Shown here piece after piece: positions 4,840-53,785 of a stretch of DNA of 64,000 nucleotides. Source of the stretch: Bugula neritina (Eukaryota; Bryozoa; Gymnolaemata; Cheilostomatida; Bugulidae). A model generated the notes under the pieces. The model ran no database searches and was not told the DNA's origin. It saw only the letters and a list, made by a program, of their open reading frames with translations. A program made the position numbers and the translations under genes. The stretch is taken from NCBI GenBank assembly GCA_964035545.1, contig OZ037767.1:27943628-28007627 (forward strand), given 5' to 3'. Position 1 is the first letter of the stretch. Every line of letters starts with the position of its first letter.

Positions 4840-7800
4840 TCACTGCATTGGCTTGTATTCTGCCATATTATTATTAAGTTTATCCCATGAGTCAGTGTCG
4901 GTCTCCTGCTCAATAGCGAATGTATCGTTAGAAGTTCGAAATCTGTTGCTTAGCTGTGAGTAGTGGGAAGTTGTTTTCTTTCGGCCATAGCACAAGTAAC
5001 ATATAGTCCCAATAATAATTTGCACTATAAAATATTAGAAGGTTATTTGAGGTTGATCTACTGTAGAAGATTAATTAGTATAAGTGCAGAATTTCATTCA
5101 AGTGAGTACATGCATGTCTTTAGAAGAGATGTTTGTGTGATGACAGCATGCATTACTGAGGAGTTATTTAAGTGCCATCAGCTAGCATTATAAATGCATG
5201 TGTAAGCCCACAACATGTAAATGAGAATATAACTTGAAAAAGTTTAACTTTGTAAAAAGAACAGCACTCTAAAGGAATGTAGGGGCAGGTAATAAGCAAC
5301 AAACACATAAGTTGGGAACCATATAAGCTCTAAGCAGTTGAAAGTAATTGTAGACCACAGTTGTTCAAGTGGTACAGTCTATGAACTAAACTTGCCTGCG
5401 AAAGCTGCTAGAATATGCCCAGAGAAATAGAGAGTAGAGATCATTACTGACTCGCTGTCATTCTCATCCAAAGAGGGCGCTGACCGGGCGGGGTTAAAGA
5501 GAATCAGCGCTGTTTGAATTAGCCATGTTCCTTGAAGACAGTAAAAGAACTGCCTAAACAAAGAAAATAGTAAATTCTGTATTGTCAAAGTTTTAATATC
5601 AAAATATAAAGTTGTAAATTTTATCAAATTTTAGTTTAATTGCGGCTTTTTTCTTTTGTGAAATATAAATATATATATAATAGCTCACTGAAATTTTTAT
5701 TTTTCCAGAATCGAAATTTTGCAAAAATATAGACACCGCTTGTCCAGGTTTTGATGGTAAAGCTAGTTGGATGGTAAAGCTGGTGTTAGCATTAAGCAAG
5801 CTAGGCTGGCGATAGCATTATGCACAAGCCAATATTGAAATCAAATAACTACTTTTTAATCACTTTGTAATTTACTTATCACTAAAGCTGTCTTGCATGA
5901 ATTTTTTTACATAAACACCAATAAAATAATATGTTATTATAGTTTTGTACTAGGTAATGTAAATATATTGTTAACATTATCATACCATTTTTTTGTATGT
6001 TGCACTAATTATTTCAGACTGGTTACAAAGGTGCTTGCTCTTAGAGAGTACTTAGACATAGAGTTTTGAAATTTAAACATTAAATTCAGTCATAGATACT
6101 AGCAAAAAGTTGAAGGTGATGTTAATCTAACACAAATCAAATCATGAACAAGTTGACACGTAAGGAGTTGTCTGGCCATGAATCCAACTAAAAAGCAGAA
6201 AGTAAATATAAGCCCATTTCCCATTATCTATGTTTATGATGATTTGTCTATGTTTATAAAGGGCTAATTTAAAAAACCAGATGCCTGTAGAAAACTTTCA
6301 GAGCAATGCCTAATATACTAGCTCTCAATAACTGTATTTTCTTTTTAAACACCTTTTTTCTCATCTCAAACATCCATTAGACACGTTTGGTCTTTCATCT
6401 TACAGCAGTGGCTATTCTGATGCATGTACCACTATTTTAGAAACAGCAACAACAAAAGAATATATAATGTGCATGATGAGATAGGTAGCTCAGCCCATTG
6501 CATGACTATGTAGTTGTGTTTCTAAGAGCGACAACAAAAAGGTATAAAAAAATGATGTGTAAACAAACAATATTATAAAATTTTGCTTAAAACCAGTTGC
6601 TTTTACTCTTTATGACTGAAAAAGATGCTTCTTCCAGAATATCTTAGAACTTAGATTAGAAAACAAGTTTCATCCCAATATTGCAGTCATCATCAATGAG
6701 TTTATATGAGCAGCTACCCACAATTTACTATACCCATTATATAGTATGATGCATCAAAAAATAAGTAATTGACATAGGCTTATGGCTAGTAACTAGGAAA
6801 CTTTTCATAGAGAGATTCTCTTTATGGCCCATGTGATGTGATTGAAATAAGCTTCTTGATAATCAAATAAAATCAACTGCAACAAAGCATGCAGTTTTAT
6901 GGCTGAGGAATTCAAAAGTACTTTAAAGTATGTTGCATAACTAAAAATTGTATCACTTATGGCTTACAATTATTTCGCAATAAGTTTGTCTCAAATTAAG
7001 TTCAATTTCAAGCATTTGACTAACCAAATAAATCATACAGTATATGCTGATAATCTAAAAATTAAGGTATATCTGTAGAATGGAGAATATTTTACGATTA
7101 ACAACATACCTTGGAAGAGACCAAATAAACTTGTCTCTATATATATACTCTGTGATTGTAGCAATAGCATTGAGTCCAACTGTATAAATAAGGAGTGTAT
7201 GGAGGTGTGTGTTGAGCAGAGTTCTACCATGCAGGTGAAAAGCTAGCAGTACAAACTGCACCCCAAAAGCTCCAAGTCCACAGAAATAAGCACTGCCTAT
7301 ATGAACATATAATATAAATGTTATTGTAATGATTTGCCTAATTACCTTGTAAAATGCAGTATGCAAATTTGAATGATGGCATATTTATTCTATATTAATT
7401 CAATCTCAAGATTTAAAACTTGAAGAATCGATTTTAATTTAACCAGTTGTCAATATTTGTATATGTATTTCAAGGTCGTAGTTGTAATGACTTAAACTGT
7501 GCATTGTAATATCATATAATATTCTATAACATAATAAACATACATTATATAATATTATATAATATAACTATATTACATTACAATAATTGAGAATTTGGGT
7601 CAGCCTTTTTAATTATAAACATTGGTGAGGAGGGTTTTTATTAGAGAAGGTTGCATTCTATTTTATTCTACTATTTAACTATTTATAGCACTTGTTTTAC
7701 AGCCTATAGACCTATAAACCTATAGAGCTGAGGGATAGAAGTTTACTTAGTTGGTTAGCTCCACAACATCTTTGCAAACCTGTTCAGGAAATCTGCTGGT

Positions 7801-17310: not shown

Positions 17311-19635
17311 ATGGTAAGTCTACTTTATATAGCAATATATTTTTCATCTTTTACCATCTTTTCCTACCAGTGCCTTACCACATTAATTAATGCAGAATAA
17401 ACGACCAATAAATGCCTTCTCGTACACCAACTCGATTAACTAAGTTAGGCGCTAGCTACCTATTTTTGTTACAAAATTTCTAGAGAGAATGACTATGAAA
17501 ATGGACACGCACACGCATTAAAAATTTAAACGTGTGGCAGCATATAACTTGATACAGCATAACCAGAAATATCCTTAATTCATATAAATTTGAAATTCGT
17601 CGTGACTGGCGCAACTTGAACTTGGCAATGGCATTTAGCATAACACCATAGAAGTTAATAGGACTTATAGAGTTTAGCATTGTGACGATTCTTTGTAGCC
17701 AAACAAGCCGATCAAGAAGGTTAAAAAAGGTAAAAAGGTAGCACCTGCACCTTTGAGGAAAAGAGAGCCAAAGAAGCCACCACAAAATCCACTCTTCGAA
17801 AAAAGGCCTAGGAATTTTGGCATTGGTTAGTGTTATATGGTAATACCATAAAGCATATGTATTCCCGAATTAAAATTTTTGCAGGTTGGACTAAATTACA
17901 ACCAAAGTTTGCATAGTTTTAATTTTAAGCATGAGTATGTTTCAGTACAAAAGCATTCTGTAAAAGAACGCCGCTAATGCCAACCCAACCCGGCTGTTAA
18001 ATGATTGATAAAACTAAAGTAGAGACCTAAAATGGTCACTGAAGTTTACTTGATAGGAAGAGACTGACCAACAGCCATAATAAATCATTTTATTTTTTTA
18101 TGCTCTGTAATATTCCTGCTGCTTATCACACTTTGAATTTGTAGGTCAGGATATTCAACCAAAGCGAAAACTCAACAGATTTGTTAGATGGCCCAAGTAC
18201 ATTCGCTTGCAAAGACAAAAAGCAGTTCTTTTGCAAAGACTAAAAGTACCTCCACCGATCAATCAGTTTAGAACCGCTATAGATCGCCAAACAGGTACAA
18301 AGTTTTCATGCTAAGCTGTAATTGTCATACCAGGTTAATGATTATACCAAACTGTATTGAGTCCTGATTTTATACCAAGATCTCTGAATACCTGATAATT
18401 TATTCTAGTTGCAGCATATTTTCTGTTTCATTCTTCTCTTACAAAAGTATTCTGATGTTGTAGCCACCCAGCTGTTCAAACTTCTGGACAAGTACAGAGC
18501 AGAGACCAGACAGGCCAAGAAGCAGAGACTGGCAGCCAGATCCGAGGCTCGAGTGGCTGGTAAAGCTGACAAACCAACTGACCGCGTGCCTATGGTCAGG
18601 GCTGGTGTCAACACTGTAACCAAACTCGTCGAGCAGAAGAAAGCACAACTAGTTGTGATTGCTCACGATGTGGAGCCACTTGAGGTATGACCTGCTGGAT
18701 AGATGGCTGCTAACGAGTACATAGCTGAGAGCGCCCTTTACTGGGAGTTTGCTCTGTGAAGCAGGCAGTATGAGAGCATCACAGCCTAGCTGTGAGGTTT
18801 GCTCTGTGACGCTGTTATATGTAGTGTATGTGAGCTGAGAGCATCCTGATTTATAGCTCAGGAAGTTTGCTCTGTGACGCTCTCCAACTTTGCTATGAAC
18901 ATTATACCGGTATGTATACAACGGCACCACTACTTTCAGTAGAGACTCGGTGAATGCGTTCACTCTGGCTGTGATGTTTGCTAGATAGTAACAGAGACTT
19001 GGTCAAAGCTTGATAACTTTTGCAGTCTGAGCCAGTAGAGCTTCTCCTGGCAATGATTTGTAGGGATGTTGCGATGCATTATGTTAGCTGACTGTGTGTT
19101 GCAGATGGTCCTCTTCCTACCTGCCCTCTGCCGTAAGATGGGTGTTCCTTACTGTATTGCTAAAGGTAAGGCCAGATTGGGACGTGTTGTGAGACGAAAA
19201 ACTTGTGCTGCTCTGTGCATAGACAAAGTAAACCCTGAAGATAGAAGCAACTTGAGTAAACTGGTGGAAACCTGCAAGAACAACTACAATGAGCGTGGAG
19301 ATGAGGTAAAAATCCTATGTCCATGTCTGTTATTTAAATTCTACAAACTTGAGATAAGTTTTGCTAGCATGTTGCTGTGTGCCTTGGACAATGAGTGTGA
19401 ATGATGTTTTGTATACTTGCTATCCGAATACCATGTAGACAGCATACTTATGTCCTGACACACTCTGAGTATTTCAGTCTTGATAGTCCTCATCAAATAT
19501 GCCTGTCTAAAGTTGAGTAATAAGTTCATATTTTTACAGATCCGTAAACACTGGGGAGGTGGTATTCTTGGTTCCAAGAGTCAAGCAAGAATTGCCAAGT
19601 TTGAGAAAGCCAAGGCCCGAGAAATAAAATTGTAA
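17311..19635 (+). CDS. RPL7A: Ribosomal protein L7a (eL8)
   Basis: Six exons: 17311-17313 (the ATG alone), 17699-17825, 18145-18294, 18464-18684, 19105-19305 and 19540-19635. Total 798 nt, 265 residues, against 266 in human. Diagnostic stretches are [26 protein letters not shown]-type sequence, [34 protein letters not shown] and [13 protein letters not shown], then the HWGGGILG region near the C-terminus. It belongs to the L7Ae/L30e/S12e/Gadd45 RNA-binding fold and is a structural protein of the large ribosomal subunit. The split after the initiator ATG is common in ribosomal protein genes. Introns 2, 4 and 5 contain box C/D snoRNA candidates, consistent with RPL7A as a snoRNA host gene in vertebrates. 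Confidence 0.98.
17992..18076 (+). ncRNA. Box C/D snoRNA candidate in RPL7A intron 2
   Basis: An 85-nt candidate with a perfect 7-bp terminal stem: GGCTGTT at 17992-17998 pairs with AACAGCC at 18070-18076. Just inside are a C-box-like ATGATTGA (18001-18008, one deviation from RUGAUGA) and a D box CTGA (18064-18067). An internal ACTGA and TTGATAG could serve as D' and C'. It sits in an intron of a known snoRNA host gene. The guide target was not determined. Confidence 0.65.
18727..18890 (+). repeat. Diverged triplicated element in RPL7A intron 4
   Basis: Three diverged copies of a unit with GAGAGC at the front and GTTTGCTCTGTGA(A/C)GC at the back, the back motif lying near 18746-18762, 18797-18812 and 18865-18880. 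CACAGC-CTA-GCTGTG forms a hairpin around 18780-18794. GAGAGCATCACAG near 18771 can pair with the third CTGTGACGCTCTC near 18873-18885. This could be a duplicated structured RNA; no class is assigned. Confidence 0.5.
18965..19035 (+). ncRNA. Weaker box C/D snoRNA candidate in RPL7A intron 4
   Basis: CTGGC (18965-18969) pairs with GCCAG (19031-19035). Inside these are GTGATGT (18971-18977, C-box-like) and CTGA (19027-19030, D box). An internal TTGATAA could be a C' box. The stem is only 5 bp, so this is less certain than the other two candidates. Confidence 0.4.
19393..19465 (+). ncRNA. Box C/D snoRNA candidate in RPL7A intron 5, SNORD24-like guide
   Basis: A 73-nt candidate. The terminal stem GAGTGTG (19393-19399) pairs perfectly with CACACTC (19459-19465). 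The C box is ATGATGT at 19401-19407 and the D box CTGA is at 19455-19458. The internal TACTTGCTATCCGA resembles the ATTTGCTATCTGA guide plus D' box of vertebrate U24 (SNORD24), which also sits in RPL7A introns; that comparison is from memory. Confidence 0.7.
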
Positions 19636-21764: not shown

Positions 21765-30360
<8,596 letters not shown>

Positions 30361-31510: not shown

Positions 31511-37530
<6,020 letters not shown>

Positions 37531-37927: not shown

Positions 37928-40900
37928 TCAACACGACGCAGTGTGGTTGTGTGAAAGCAACTTCAGGGGTATTAACTCAGTGTTCTGTATATACTGAAAA
38001 GCTTGAGTGTAGTTCTGAAGTGTGGCAATGAGGAAGGCTGACATAGCACCCGACACATACTCGTGGTACTGTGGATAGACTCTAGACCAATCACCTACTG
38101 TCTTACAGAAATGTCCAATATGGCAGGCTAAAACATAAACATATAATAGGCTAAACAGTATTAAATCATATATATGCGTGTGTTGCTATAGACTCAGTTT
38201 CAATATAACCACAAAATATAATCTTAATTTACAAATAAAGCTGCATGTATTTGTTGACTTACTAGCTATTGCAAGCACATAGTAATTATTTGTAGCATAT
38301 GTATGTGAAACAGTGCAGCTTATACAAATAAACTCAATTATATTTCAAATATTGTGTGATTTGCTTTGCAATAAACCTAATGATTATTATTGTAAATAAT
38401 AAAATATGCATTATACACTTATGCACTCATGCAAATAAATTAAATAACTTATTTACACTGTTCTTGTTAATTTGCCGAATCATTTTACTATTGACTACTA
38501 TTCTTGATTAGTGAAAACATGAATTTTACACTTACTTTCCCACCAAAGCTTGTCCAGTATGTCACAGTGGCCAAAATTCTACAAATTTAATGAATAAAGA
38601 AAATATATTTCGAGATAGTATAACGTGAGTAGAACTTGTACCGCAATAATTTTACAAAATTTAGTTTTAAAGTTAAATTTCTGATCTTTTGGAGATCTAA
38701 CAATATAAATATCTGAAAATAATAACAATAATATATTAATATGATTTTTTGTTGCAAAGTGCCTGCCTGTATAAACCTGCTGCTATAATATTACTAAAAT
38801 ATCTCCAAATGATTGGTATCTCAGCTCACGGATTCTGTTTATTACCAAAACTTTTAGTAAATGGCTAAATTTGTTACAACTCATTCTGCAATAGTCAATA
38901 TTTAGCCTATTACATACACTTTAAAACTACAAGAATTGCATTTAAACACCCAAGCAATGAATAGAGAGATACAAAATATCAGTGCAGTCTAGTATATATT
39001 ACTGTACTATATGAGTATATATTTTGAGAAATTATTAATTATTCACACAACCATAATATGGTGATATGCTGTGCTGTAGGCTATATATTATTATATATAC
39101 CATACATGCATATAATACTATACAGGCATATATCATACAGATATATATCATATCCTAAGGACATATATCATGTATGTGCATATCAAACACCATACGGCAT
39201 GCATCATTCACCATGCAGCCACAATAGCTAATGTATTATTACCGTATACTAACAATAGAGTTTACAAAGTCAAGGGTTTGAATCCCAGAGAGTGCATTGG
39301 TGTCTGGTGATGTCAGAAGTATCATCCAATCATAATTGCTCCTGTGTTACAGCATACACAGTTCTTAGCCCACTAGAACCCCCTTACCATCAGGGTTCTC
39401 ACAAGTATGAGTTGTTATAACAGACTCATCAATACGTACAGCTACTTCAGTAGTCCATTTTGGACAGCCCCAAGTGTCATAAAACGCTTTATAATCCACT
39501 CCTGGCAATGAACAAGGAAATGGCCCATACTCCTCTGCAAACTGTGTGCCGTACATGTAAGCTGGAACTTTAATGCCTGGCTTTTTGCTAATTCGTACGC
39601 TGAAGGGCTCCATGAAGATTGTACTCTATAAATATAATAACAAAACTATTTCAATATATTAGGAGAGGAGCTCAGAGCTAAAATCACCAAGATGTAAGAT
39701 TTTACCAGTTTTCAAAACTTTGTTGCTCTCTGCAAAAAAATTCCTTCACAATCAAATGCATGCAGTCTAATATTCTCAACTTGATTATTTGAAGCACAGC
39801 TTTTAAAAAATTAAGTTATAACTTTCAGACTTACTGCAACCAATGACAACTGATATTTGAAAATGATGTCTATATTATGATATATAAAATAGTATAATTA
39901 TAAAATACTCGTACTTATAAGCAACGCTAAATTAGTTTACTGAGAAGTTCAGCCGGGGTTTACATTGTTGCAATACTTGATGCAGAGATAATATAAATAT
40001 TAAAAGCTATTATATAGAGTTATTTGCTCACGTTAGCTACAGTGTCGTCTGCTTGTAACATTCCTAGCGTAACGTCACAGCCAGCTGAATGACAACCCAG
40101 GGCTAAGTTATTGGTCAGAGGTTTGACTGTCGAGTTTAAATACGTTGTAAGATGTTGTTTAAGCTACAATGTAGTATAGCATAAACTGTACTATGAATTA
40201 TATTATTTTCATACAACATTGCTGTCGCAAAATAAGAAGAAAGAGCAATGTAAGCAAAAGCTAAGGACTTATAGAGAAGCATGTACTACAACCAATTGGT
40301 GATAATTTTCATCTGCATACTGTGTGTAATGTCTGTGTACAATGCAGCTATAACATTTACAATTTTCGGAATGTAATAATATATATTTACAATATTTACC
40401 TTTGAATGAAATGTAAATGGTAAAATTTTCAGTAATATTGTGTAGTTTTACAAACCCATGCGACATGCTTCAAGTTTTTAGTTATGAGATCATCTTGTTC
40501 TACACGACTTTGTCTAGAATAGCTGAGTGCGGGATAGAAAGGGTCGACAGCCGCCACAATGAAACCGTGGGAGACAACTCTAGTTAGGACGTCGGTATAC
40601 CACTCTGCAGGGATAACTCCCTCTGGTCCACCAGGCACAAAGTAGTAGACTGGATACTCTCCAGCCTCTTGTGGGTGAATTACTTTATGAAAATAAAACA
40701 AGTAGACAGTGACATATGTATATAGGTGCTGTGAAGAAGTTTAATAGCTTGAAATAGCTTAAAATATTTAAATTTTTGATAAATTGTAGCTTTGGGTTCA
40801 AGTTGAAATTTTTCCTTTGAAATGCAGAGATGTTGAAGAAATAAACCAAACTCGAATAAAAGTTGTGGTTAATGGCTTCTGAATATTGTGAAGGTTCTTT

Positions 40901-41702: not shown

Positions 41703-43102
41703 TCACCATGTGACTGCCAACACCTGGGGATTTATATCTATATATTACAGTATAGAAAATATCATGTAGTATATAATGTTACGTTCTGTTAGCTATAGAT
41801 AGTGGCCATCTGCATAGTGTGTTGTTTTACCAGCAAAGCTATTCCAATATCGCACTAGATGCTTGTGAACATAAGTATTAGCTTCTTACCTGCATAGTTT
41901 GCATGCATAGCTTTACCTTACCTGCATAGTTTGCAAACATTTACTGCACAAAGTTTTAAGTGAAACACAAAAATTGTGTAAAGAGTAAAATATTTTAGCA
42001 AAGCCCGCTGTTTGAACTCTGACATTAAAAACATGATGTTTTCACATTCTAAGAGTAAAAATTGAAACTCTTTTTTATCAGATGAGCATAATATTTATGA
42101 ACAGAATCTTTCTATTTGTAAATTATAGTAGACAAAGATACAGCGTGGAATAAAGAATCTAAAATTAGAAGTTGAAAGAATAAGCAACTTTCGATTAACA
42201 AATTATAAATAGATGTGAATTCCTGTACACAGTAAAAAAATCATAAAAAGCAGTGGAGTTCTTCTTAATGGTTGTACAAGGATAATATTTTTATATATGT
42301 ATGCCACATTCAATATAAGTTTGAATAAACTTAAGATCTTATATATACTATATTAATACAACATATACAATACAATGTGTAACACATAAAATGTATGCAA
42401 GCAACTAGTTAATGTTTGTATTATAACTATGACCAATACTTTTAACAAAAACCTGCCTGAAAAATGCTTTTTATTTCATTATTTAAAAAGAGATTTGAAT
42501 TTATCCTGAATAAAGAGCTTATTTGAATATAAAATTGTCCTAAAATATAAAAATTGCATACTAACTGAAGATGAATCTTAAATTGTGTGTAGTTGAAGGT
42601 GTTTAAGGGTGGGTTTGTAATTGTAATTCTTGCTCATAGCCATTACTGTTTTGTTACCATAATATGTATTTATGCAACAATTATCTATATGATTTATTAA
42701 AAGCAATTTTGAACAAAAGAAAGAAGCCAATTAGTTATTAACTTTATAAGTTGGTTCCATTAACTAAGTATGCAGTAGCAGCTGACGAATGCTTTAAAGC
42801 AATCCATTTACAATGCGCAAGCTTACTAAGCTTTTGGATTAAATACATTGAAGCGCAAATATTATACAGCCATTGTTGAATGCAAACTATGATAAAAATG
42901 ACTAGTATGCAGATACTGTGCAACAGTGATTTCAACTATTCAAATGCTGATTTCTAATTTTACAAAATAATTAGTTATTGTAATCACTAAAATCACGGTG
43001 CAGCAGTTTCTCAGTGTTTACAATCTTGAAGTAATGGCGGACTCATTTCAATTCGCAAATTTGTAGTTTGGTTTGTGGTGAAAGATTACAGCAGGCACCA
43101 AC
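41703..43102. other. Divergent intergenic region
   Basis: About 1.4 kb between the hydrolase promoter and the repeat-protein start. AT-rich, no supported gene. Confidence 0.5.
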
Positions 43103-45600
43103 ATGAGCCACTCAAGACTTTTGCTATATGCCAAAGTGGCTGGCGGGTGAGACATATATACATTTTCCAAGATATTTTATTTATATTCTCTTTCACTTAA
43201 ATAGCTTACTTTTTTTCAGAGCATAGAGCAGTTTCCAGCATTAGATTTTTGAATTTGTCTAGAGTTTTTTAAATGGTCAGTGATGACTTTCAATGTTAAC
43301 CTTGTTTCACATAACAGTATCTGTTCATCTAAATAAATACAGCATATATAGTAATATTATTATATTCTACTACATAAGTAAAGGAACTAAAAGCGCTTCT
43401 TGGTTGTTTGTTTAGATTATTTGCTGCTGGAGTCGCTATGAAAGTAATATACAGTCTGTATAAATCTAAGAGTGAGAAGTCAGAGCTAAACTTGAATGTA
43501 CCTGCAGGCACCAATGAGCCTAAAGAAAATGTGCCCACCACAAGCGATGGAGTTGAGTCAAATACAGAAAGCTCAGCAACTACATCTAAAAATATTATCA
43601 AAAAAGCAGCCAGTAAAAAGAAAACCCCTGCTGCTGAAAATGACACATCAAATACCCAATCTATTAGCCAACATGCTGAAAGAAAAGACCAACCAATAGA
43701 GAAGACCACTAAAAGAGAGAAAGACTCTTCAGGCAGTTCTAAGAAGGGGGTACCTTCTACCAGCACACTTGAGGACTTTGTTGCACTGGATGCAAATGAC
43801 CATAAGAGAGCAGAAGAAGCCATTTCTAGAGTACTCGTACAATCTAAGCAACGCCTGCAAGATGTGGAATCAAGATTGCGAAACTTCATGATGCAAGACC
43901 CCAAAAACCGCAAGCAAGCTGAAGAAATTATGAACAAGGTGATAACAATGTCTAAAAGACGAGTATCAGAAGTAGAGTCGAGGATGAAGGATGTGGTAAA
44001 AATGGATTTGGAAAGTCGTGTAAAGGCAGCAGAAGCTATTAACAAAGCTCTTGGAGAAACAACTAAACAAGTATTAGAAAAAGAATCTCGACTTCAAGGT
44101 TTTGTTAAAATAGATGCCCCGCATAGGAAAAGTGCTGAAGAAGCCATTAATCAAGTTTTGTCCAAATTTAGAATGCGATTACTTGAAGTTGAATCAAGAT
44201 TCAGAGATTTTGTAGTGCAAGATGAATCTAGTCGACAGCAAGCAAAAGATGCAATCAATGAGATTTTCTCGGCATCCAAAAAGCCTGATGGTGCTAGTCA
44301 GATTGACAATCAGGGCTCAACAGAAAATGATTCTTCTGCAAATAAAATGCCGCAAAAGGATAATGCTTCAGAAGCTCAGGCAAGACTGCAAGATGTTGTA
44401 ACAATGGATTCAGAAAATCAGGTCCTGGCAGCTGAAACAATGAAAAAGGTTATCGCTGAGTCTGCAAGACGAATACTGGAGCAAAAGTCAAGGTTCCAAG
44501 ATTTTGCCAAGCTAGATACATCTAGGCGCCAAAGTGCTGAGGAAGCTATCAAACAGGTACTGACGGATTTCAAAAGACGCATGTCTGAAGTAGAGTCTCG
44601 GTTCAACAGCTTTGAAGTACAAGATCAATCAGCTCGTCAGCAAGCAAAGGATACAATTCAAAAACTTCTACAAGAACAAACAGCTAACTATAAAGGTGCT
44701 AAAGTAGCTGAAAATGACACTAGTGAAAATCTGCAAGGCAGTCCTGAGACAGAAGTAAAATCAAGATTAGATGATGTTGTAACTATGAACATAGAAAGCC
44801 AGCAGCAGGCAGCTGAAACTATGAAAAAAGTGGTGGCAGAGTCTGTGAGACGTATTGTAGACCAAAAGTCAAGATTTCAAGATTTTGCTAAGCTAGATGC
44901 AACTCGTCGTCAAAGTGCTGAAGAAGCTGTAAAGCATGTTCTCGTTGAATTCAGAAAGCGCATGATTGAAGTGGAGTCAAGGTTTAGCAATTTTCAAGTA
45001 CAAGACTCGTCAAGTCGTCAACAGGCTACAGCTGCCATAAACAAACTTTTGCTTGAACCAAGAAAAAGTGTCCAGGAAGATGGACAAAAAATTGAGAGTG
45101 AGAGTGAAAGCAAGAACTTATCAGAGATAAGGTCAAGACTGAAAGATATTGTAACAATTGACTCAGGAAGTCAAATGCTTGCAGCAGAAGCTATGAAAAA
45201 AGTCATCACAGAATCTGTGCGACGCATAAATGAACACAAAGCAAGGTATCAGGACTTTACTAAGCTAGACGCACCACGGCGTCAAAGTGCTGAAGAAGCC
45301 ATCAATCAAGTCTTGACCGAATTCAAAAAACGTGTGTTTGAGGTGGAATCCAGGTTGAACGATATAACTGTGCAAGATGAATCAAGTCACCAGCAAGCAA
45401 AAGAGGTAATCAACAAACTCTTGCAAGAGCCAAGAAGAGCCTCAAAAGATGGCAACCAAGAAAATCAGAGTAATGTTGAGCAACTCACTAAGAATGAAGC
45501 AGAAGATTTGTTGTACTATTTAAATGATCAGATTGGTTCTGATGAAGAGGCAGTGCACTCCTACAATAGTGATGAGTACAGTAGCGCGGTTGATGAGTAA
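43103..45600 (+). CDS. N-terminally anchored protein with fourteen 36-residue repeats, 742 aa
   Basis: Two exons, 43103-43146 and 43416-45600, join in phase 2 to give 742 residues. The N-terminus MSHSRLLLYAKVAGG plus LFAAGVAMKVIYSLYKSK has one hydrophobic segment (about residues 8-30) followed by Lys, so it is probably a signal anchor. After a Lys/Ser/Thr-rich low-complexity stretch, residues about 133-690 consist of fourteen copies of a 36-residue unit with pattern (L/F)xDFVxxD..SR..AEEAInxVL......EVESR. The first two units stand alone. The remaining twelve form four triplets, each with a VVTMD-type, a FAKLD-type and a VQD-type unit, and acidic linkers after the VQD unit. The C-terminus is acidic and Ser-rich. 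The repeats look alpha-helical and highly charged and may form a rod or bundle. I recognise no family, and function is unknown. Nearly the whole protein comes from one exon. Confidence 0.85.

Positions 45601-46415: not shown

Positions 46416-53785
<7,370 letters not shown>

Follow-up and report, generated by a model that had tools for sequence, protein, structure and literature searches.

A predicted membrane-anchored protein built from duplicated triplets of 36-residue helical units in the bryozoan Bugula neritina

Kinectin and p180 are coiled-coil spacers or scaffolds on the ER, and PTPIP51/RMDN3 and MIGA2 are mitochondrial proteins with an N-terminal anchor and a helical part. Spectrin repeats are about 106 residues long, and proteins of the apolipoprotein, perilipin, and LEA kind have a repeat length of 11. 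For signal anchors, an Arabidopsis study reports that more than 89% of those in mitochondria and chloroplasts have a hydrophobicity below 0.4, whereas more than 85% of those in the ER lie above it; the same report extends the rule to most signal anchors of mammalian and yeast mitochondria and adds that at least three basic residues usually follow the mitochondrial segment (PMC4010795). The core of the FFAT motif is given as E-F-F-D-A-x-E, placed after an acidic tract, and the phospho-FFAT form, present in the ER-contact proteins PTPIP51 and MIGA2, has Ser or Thr at position 4 (PMC7610837).

Here we describe a repeat gene in a 64,000-nucleotide stretch of Bugula neritina chromosome 3 (27,943,628-28,007,627 of the contig), called the window below. 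The gene occupies 43103-45600 on the + strand in two exons (Table 1). Tentatively, we propose that this nuclear gene encodes a signal-anchored, cytosol-facing helical spacer or scaffold, most likely on the mitochondrial outer membrane; in this proposal, the membrane, the orientation, the single helix in each unit, and the function as spacer or scaffold are all inferred. Judged by sequence, the predicted gene model is sound. Its ATG at 43103 is preceded shortly upstream by an in-frame TGA at 43079, and joining 43103-43146 to 43416-45600 across a GT...AG intron yields exactly 742 residues and a stop codon (TAA, 45598-45600), as the earlier note on this DNA had it. An open frame of 254 codons on the opposite strand (43329-44093 -) is taken as a by-product of the repeat-gene coding sequence.

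Table 1 Features of the repeat gene, with positions in the window.
Feature	Coordinates	Strand	Evidence
Exon 1: ATG, 14 codons and 2 bases (44 bases), start of anchor	43103..43146	+	GT donor at 43147, TGA at 43079
Intron, phase 2, within anchor codons	43147..43415	+	GTGAGA...GTTTAG; phase-2 intron at matching anchor position in the paralog (L002)
Exon 2: remainder of the 742-aa protein and stop	43416..45600	+	Joined translation
Predicted membrane anchor (residues 12-30), its codons divided by the intron 43147-43415	43136..43461	+	Best 19-residue window on two scales; aligns with the paralog from residue 16
Polar linker, residues 35-132, net +2	43474..43767	+	Charge count
Units U1 and U2, not in triplets	43768..43983	+	Repeat alignment, unit tree
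Triplet 1 (U3-U5), most diverged of the four	43984..44277	+	Repeat alignment, pairwise identity
Linker 1, 36 aa, net -1	44278..44385	+	Charge count
Triplet 2 (U6-U8)	44386..44679	+	Repeat alignment, structure model
Linker 2, 29 aa, net -1	44680..44766	+	Charge count
Triplet 3 (U9-U11)	44767..45060	+	Repeat alignment
Linker 3, 26 aa, net 0	45061..45138	+	Charge count
Triplet 4 (U12-U14)	45139..45432	+	Repeat alignment
Acidic tail, residues 703-742, net -11	45478..45597	+	12 acidic and 1 basic in the last 40 residues
Phospho-FFAT-like core EYSSAVD, residues 735-741	45574..45594	+	Pattern match; lead only

From its N-terminus, the protein consists of the anchor, a polar linker, 14 units of 36 residues arranged as two singles and four triplets, and an acidic tail. 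The units begin at residues 133, 169, 205, 241, 277, 339, 375, 411, 466, 502, 538, 590, 626, and 662 and span residues 133-697, and three linkers break the array. Over residues 133-702, the mean BLOSUM62 score at a lag of 36 is +0.82, against -0.49 +/- 0.08 (maximum -0.24) in 1000 shuffles; together with the unit tree described below, this bears out the 14 units, the regular 36-residue period, and the three-unit super-period that had been read from the letters beforehand. The repeats are charged and contain neither cysteine nor tryptophan. Ala15 is present in all 14 units and Asp8 in 13, the latter often followed by Ser, Ala, Pro, or Glu. Most units share Arg12, Glu17, Ala18, Ile19, Val22, and Leu23, to which the full-length ones add Arg29, Glu32, Ser35, and Arg36. 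Judged from this pattern, Asp8 looks like a helix cap with a long helix after it.

The third, VQD-type unit of a triplet matches over about 26 residues only, and in triplets 1-3 a linker of 26-36 residues comes next. At the linker ends, unit-like residues (AQAR, EVKSR, and EIRSR) return directly before the next unit. Because of this reappearance, we read the linker as interrupting the third unit, or helix, rather than trailing a complete one. The linkers had been described as acidic, but the three internal linkers are close to neutral (Table 1), and it is the tail alone that is acidic.

The triplets are 49-69% identical to one another over 98 residues, with triplets 2, 3, and 4 mutually 63-69% identical and triplet 1 sharing 49-51% with these. 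Estimates could be obtained for five of the six triplet pairs; in these, dS is 1.36-2.55, values that are imprecise owing to saturation, and dN/dS is 0.09-0.26. Synonymous sites are near saturation and the protein is conserved. The triplet duplication does not appear recent; the triplets are old, contrary to the recent expansion first suggested for them. A unit-by-unit tree, proposed at that time as a check, was built from 17 units (14 from the window gene, among which U1 and U2 were assigned to no group, and three from the paralog described below). In this tree the triplet types cluster: types A, B, and C, taken together with the group of the paralog, need three changes, the minimum, against a mean of 8.8 after shuffling, and none of 200 shuffles was as low. 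Single groups are modestly supported (B 94/89, A 63/37, C 47/37), with no branch starred and B alone fairly supported. The pattern fits duplication of a three-unit block.

A tblastn search of the species' own genome (215.8 Mb, 295 contigs) with the window protein returned one relative, on chromosome 6 (locus L002, E 5e-15, 30% identity), which was the sole other match below E 0.01; the single further match (E 0.043) falls in a frame resembling, by eye, a retrotransposon. The exon 2 frame of this paralog is 304 residues long from stop to stop and, with a 38-base exon 1 placed by eye from sequence alone, gives a protein of 310 residues. It begins MNTKVAALVKIGWLLAAGLAVKVIYDLHKARK, and the window protein begins MSHSRLLLYAKVAGGLFAAGVAMKVIYSLYKSK. 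Both genes have a phase-2 intron immediately before the LFAAG/LLAAG stretch of the anchor. The paralog has an anchor of the same kind and about three units, one degenerate and two good, and anchor and units align between the two proteins. The ancestral form probably comprised an anchor, a linker, and some three units. A search with the paralog as query listed 39 places, namely itself, six in the window gene, and 32 others (best E 0.006), and all of these 32 fall within query residues 19-146, mainly its KEQ-rich linker. That linker (L002:1632-1800) carries a short KEQLS/KEHVP-like repeat of its own, recognized by eye.

The helical character of the repeats was predicted from two structure models, both weak and built on alignments of only four and five sequences. 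For triplet 2 (four-row alignment; pLDDT 76.3, pTM 0.32), helices are placed at 2-12, 16-81, and 88-107, with breaks in U6 (positions 6-8) and U8 (positions 3-8), and U6-U7 form one helix that is unbroken at Asp8 of U7. For U1-U5 (five-row alignment; pLDDT 54.5, pTM 0.31), helices are placed at 4-48, 50-81, 86-117, 122-151, and 158-174, that is, one per unit, with four breaks at unit positions 3-8 and the U1 helix beginning before its Asp8. The two models agree that the repeats would be helical and the helices long, and they point to a single helix for most units. When averaged over a unit, the hydrophobic moment does not exceed that of shuffles, 491 of 2000 being as high, which counts against a simple unbroken amphipathic stripe. 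The earlier suggestion of a helical rod at a membrane or organelle is upheld in part: the helical build predicted by these weak models is compatible with a rod or spacer, and by the published hydrophobicity rule the organelle would more specifically be the mitochondrion, at its outer membrane.

In searches for known families, no match was accepted in Pfam, NCBIfam, or solved structures, in keeping with the first reading, which had recognized no family. The exon 2 frame gave 12 Pfam matches up to E 10, all below cut-off (best Dermcidin, E 0.026), in a search where HMMER filters may drop weak matches. Among the best 25 of 27 families matched by the four triplets up to E 1, the top one was ANIS5_cation-bd (E 0.0027, in two of four triplets); none was accepted, and for the first triplet, the one for which cut-offs were compared, all eight matches were below them. 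The paralog had no Pfam match up to E 1. In NCBIfam, the frame of the window gene had four matches, the best at E 0.0013, and the paralog had three, all far below cut-off, and no match of the triplet or doublet profiles to solved structures was accepted. The predicted protein is new to the Pfam, NCBIfam, and solved-structure libraries named, and we mean new in that sense only. Beyond these libraries, viral contigs queried with the single protein yielded no relative, and a triplet profile run against genome contigs yielded 203 pattern matches, none of them confirmed. Literature searches found nothing on 36-residue repeats combined with membrane terms, and those on Bugula or bryozoan gene novelty found nothing on the repeat gene, as judged by title or abstract.

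Kinship with cGAS or Mab-21 was considered and rejected. The spine helix of cGAS (PDB 7uux, 7kxs) was the top solved-structure match of two triplet profiles (E 0.29 and 0.27) and, at E 0.22, second for the doublet profile. As a reversed control profile made from four of the eight rows of the doublet alignment reached E 0.23 with an unrelated chain, we read the cGAS match as chance. No Mab-21 match was found in the own genome at E 0.001, in a search run without a positive control. The first match of the doublet profile, enoyl-ACP reductase (E 0.018), is better than the best of the control and covers 39 profile positions only.

Several other observations were made in the window and the genome. 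Downstream of the repeat gene, a gene at 47412-51438 (+) contains a Myb domain (47412-47642, E 2e-10) and Myb_Cef matches (49677-49985 and 51205-51438), and we take it to be a CDC5L/Cef1-like splicing factor. Two DUF716 exons, presumably TMEM45-like, lie on opposite strands (1427-1684 + and 7055-7381 -; E 3e-6 and 5e-7). A ribosomal L7Ae-family exon (18409-18687 +, E 2e-8) is probably RPL7A. An exon at 40429-40737 (-) matches the Chlorophyllase family (E 7e-8), with an unmatched frame nearby (39365-39622 -). A Death domain exon (37255-37527 +) is barely over the cut-off (E 1e-4), and a similar-looking frame at 30082-30357 is unmatched up to E 0.01. Within chromosome 6, a full-length COX1 match (L020, C6:11174072-11175412 -) carries TGA codons at nine places, like its counterpart in the mitochondrial contig (C295). 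Other COX1-like stretches, on C17 (no TGA), C196 (two pieces), and C65, could stem from other organisms or represent inserts.

A single N-terminal membrane segment had been noted before, and the segment predicted here (residues 12-30) agrees with it, being the best 19-residue window on two scales. On the Wimley-White interface scale, the best 19-residue mean is 0.14 for the window gene and 0.15 for the paralog, both below 0.4, the scale variant behind the 0.4 rule being assumed. Lysines K31, K33, and K36 follow the anchor, as K, R, and K follow the segment of the paralog. The two sequence features of mitochondrial outer-membrane signal anchors, moderate hydrophobicity and at least three basic residues afterwards, are therefore both present. 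One hydrophobic segment at the N-terminus, with lysines behind it and then a long stretch of charged repeats, would also suit a signal anchor of the ER or secretory pathway, making the protein a coiled-coil ER spacer or scaffold similar to kinectin or p180. We consider this unlikely, since the segment is moderately hydrophobic, has one lysine within it, and has a mean under 0.4, whereas more than 85% of ER signal anchors in the plant data set lie above that value (PMC4010795). The anchor might instead be a cleaved presequence. Five basic and no acidic residues in the first 34 would be in line with a mitochondrial presequence or an inner-membrane anchor and with repeats inside mitochondria as a structural protein. 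However, the corresponding stretch of the paralog includes one acidic residue, no inner-membrane or cristae family came above cut-off, and ApoO reached just E 0.35, in the first of the four triplets, so that we regard an intramitochondrial location as quite unlikely.

Other readings concern the repeats themselves. Charged, predicted helical, and lacking cysteine and tryptophan, they could be amphipathic helices that bind lipid or membrane in the manner of apolipoproteins, perilipins, or LEA proteins, forming a surface coat or protecting the cell; a protective charged protein had been one of the original suggestions. This appears very unlikely to us, as a period of 36 cannot be built from whole 11-residue repeats, the hydrophobic stripe does not rise above shuffles, and the 12 Pfam matches with E up to 10 include neither Apolipoprotein nor LEA families. 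The spacing of Asp8, Arg12, Ala15, Ala18, and Ile19 may resemble the second helix of HEAT repeats, and one could imagine units that are HEAT- or armadillo-like two-helix repeats in a partner-binding solenoid. Yet the weak models show one long helix per unit, or longer, rather than two; neither family is among the 12 exon 2 frame matches or the best 25 of 27 triplet families, and a lone Importin_rep_6 match (E 0.031) occurs in one of four triplets, all of which makes a solenoid highly improbable. Under the cytosol-facing spacer or scaffold that we tentatively favour, the short, moderately hydrophobic N-terminal segment and its lysines would fix the protein in the membrane, leaving the remainder cytosolic. 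Past a flexible linker, the 14 units would each form about one long helix starting at the near-invariant Asp8, giving helical modules, with two units at the front and four three-helix modules behind, set apart by flexible, near-neutral linkers. Such a jointed spacer or scaffold could keep the acidic C-terminal end away from the membrane, with its length set by duplication of units and then of triplets, and the paralog would be the short form.

The C-terminal end itself offers a lead, not a finding. The tail ends EYSSAVD-E, which fits the core pattern E1-F/Y2-x3-S/T4-A5-x6-E/D7 of a phospho-FFAT motif. This strict pattern, written after the match was seen, occurs in 2.2% of 20,000 whole-protein shuffles and in 0.7% when the last 55 residues alone are shuffled, and a loose pattern occurs in 27% of whole-protein shuffles. 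The six residues before the core include one acidic residue and two serines, and three further acids lie 10-12 residues before it. The paralog, the only relative compared, has no phospho-FFAT match, strict or loose. In the genome, nine matches to the MSP domain (PF00635) were found, five of them stop-free on chromosomes. From the match of the C-terminus to the phospho-FFAT core, one could envisage an ER-mitochondria tether that evolved in bryozoans, with an outer-membrane anchor, a jointed series of three-helix modules bridging the gap, and an end that would bind VAP on the ER upon phosphorylation of Ser738. We see this as a distinct long shot. If it were true, the repeat number, set by duplication, would be the ruler of the contact distance, and the number of modules would allow the effect of spacer length on organelle spacing to be tested in a natural case.

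From an evolutionary perspective, the two genes look like a family in which a short anchored protein was lengthened by stepwise duplication of helical units, the steps being still legible in the sequence. Bryozoans are little studied, and what we see here is a neat new repeat protein from such a phylum, not a new kind of system. If it is only a scaffold, it would still give a starting point from which a new repeat family could be described.

Compared with described systems, the predicted protein shares with spectrin-type three-helix repeats (Spectrin_7 PF25101, SYNE3 PF25804) groups of three helical units, of about 98 residues here. In contrast to spectrin, the third unit is short and a polar linker comes after it. 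These two profiles reached E 0.059 and 0.27, each in one of four triplets; the former is the best spectrin value, and no spectrin profile is among the exon 2 frame matches up to E 10. Similar to PTPIP51/RMDN3 and MIGA2 as described in PMC7610837, the protein would have a membrane anchor and a core with Ser at position 4. It differs from them in that the motif is at the extreme C-terminus with a weak acidic flank nearby, the paralog is without the motif, and no TPR or MIGA family is among the matches listed. Finally, unlike Tom20-type proteins, it gave no match to a receptor domain and has fourteen 36-residue units instead, and its location is a predicted one. It nevertheless resembles mitochondrial outer-membrane signal-anchored proteins such as Tom20, as they are characterized in PMC4010795 and PMC9355564, in having a moderately hydrophobic N-terminal segment, basic residues, and the bulk of the protein afterwards.
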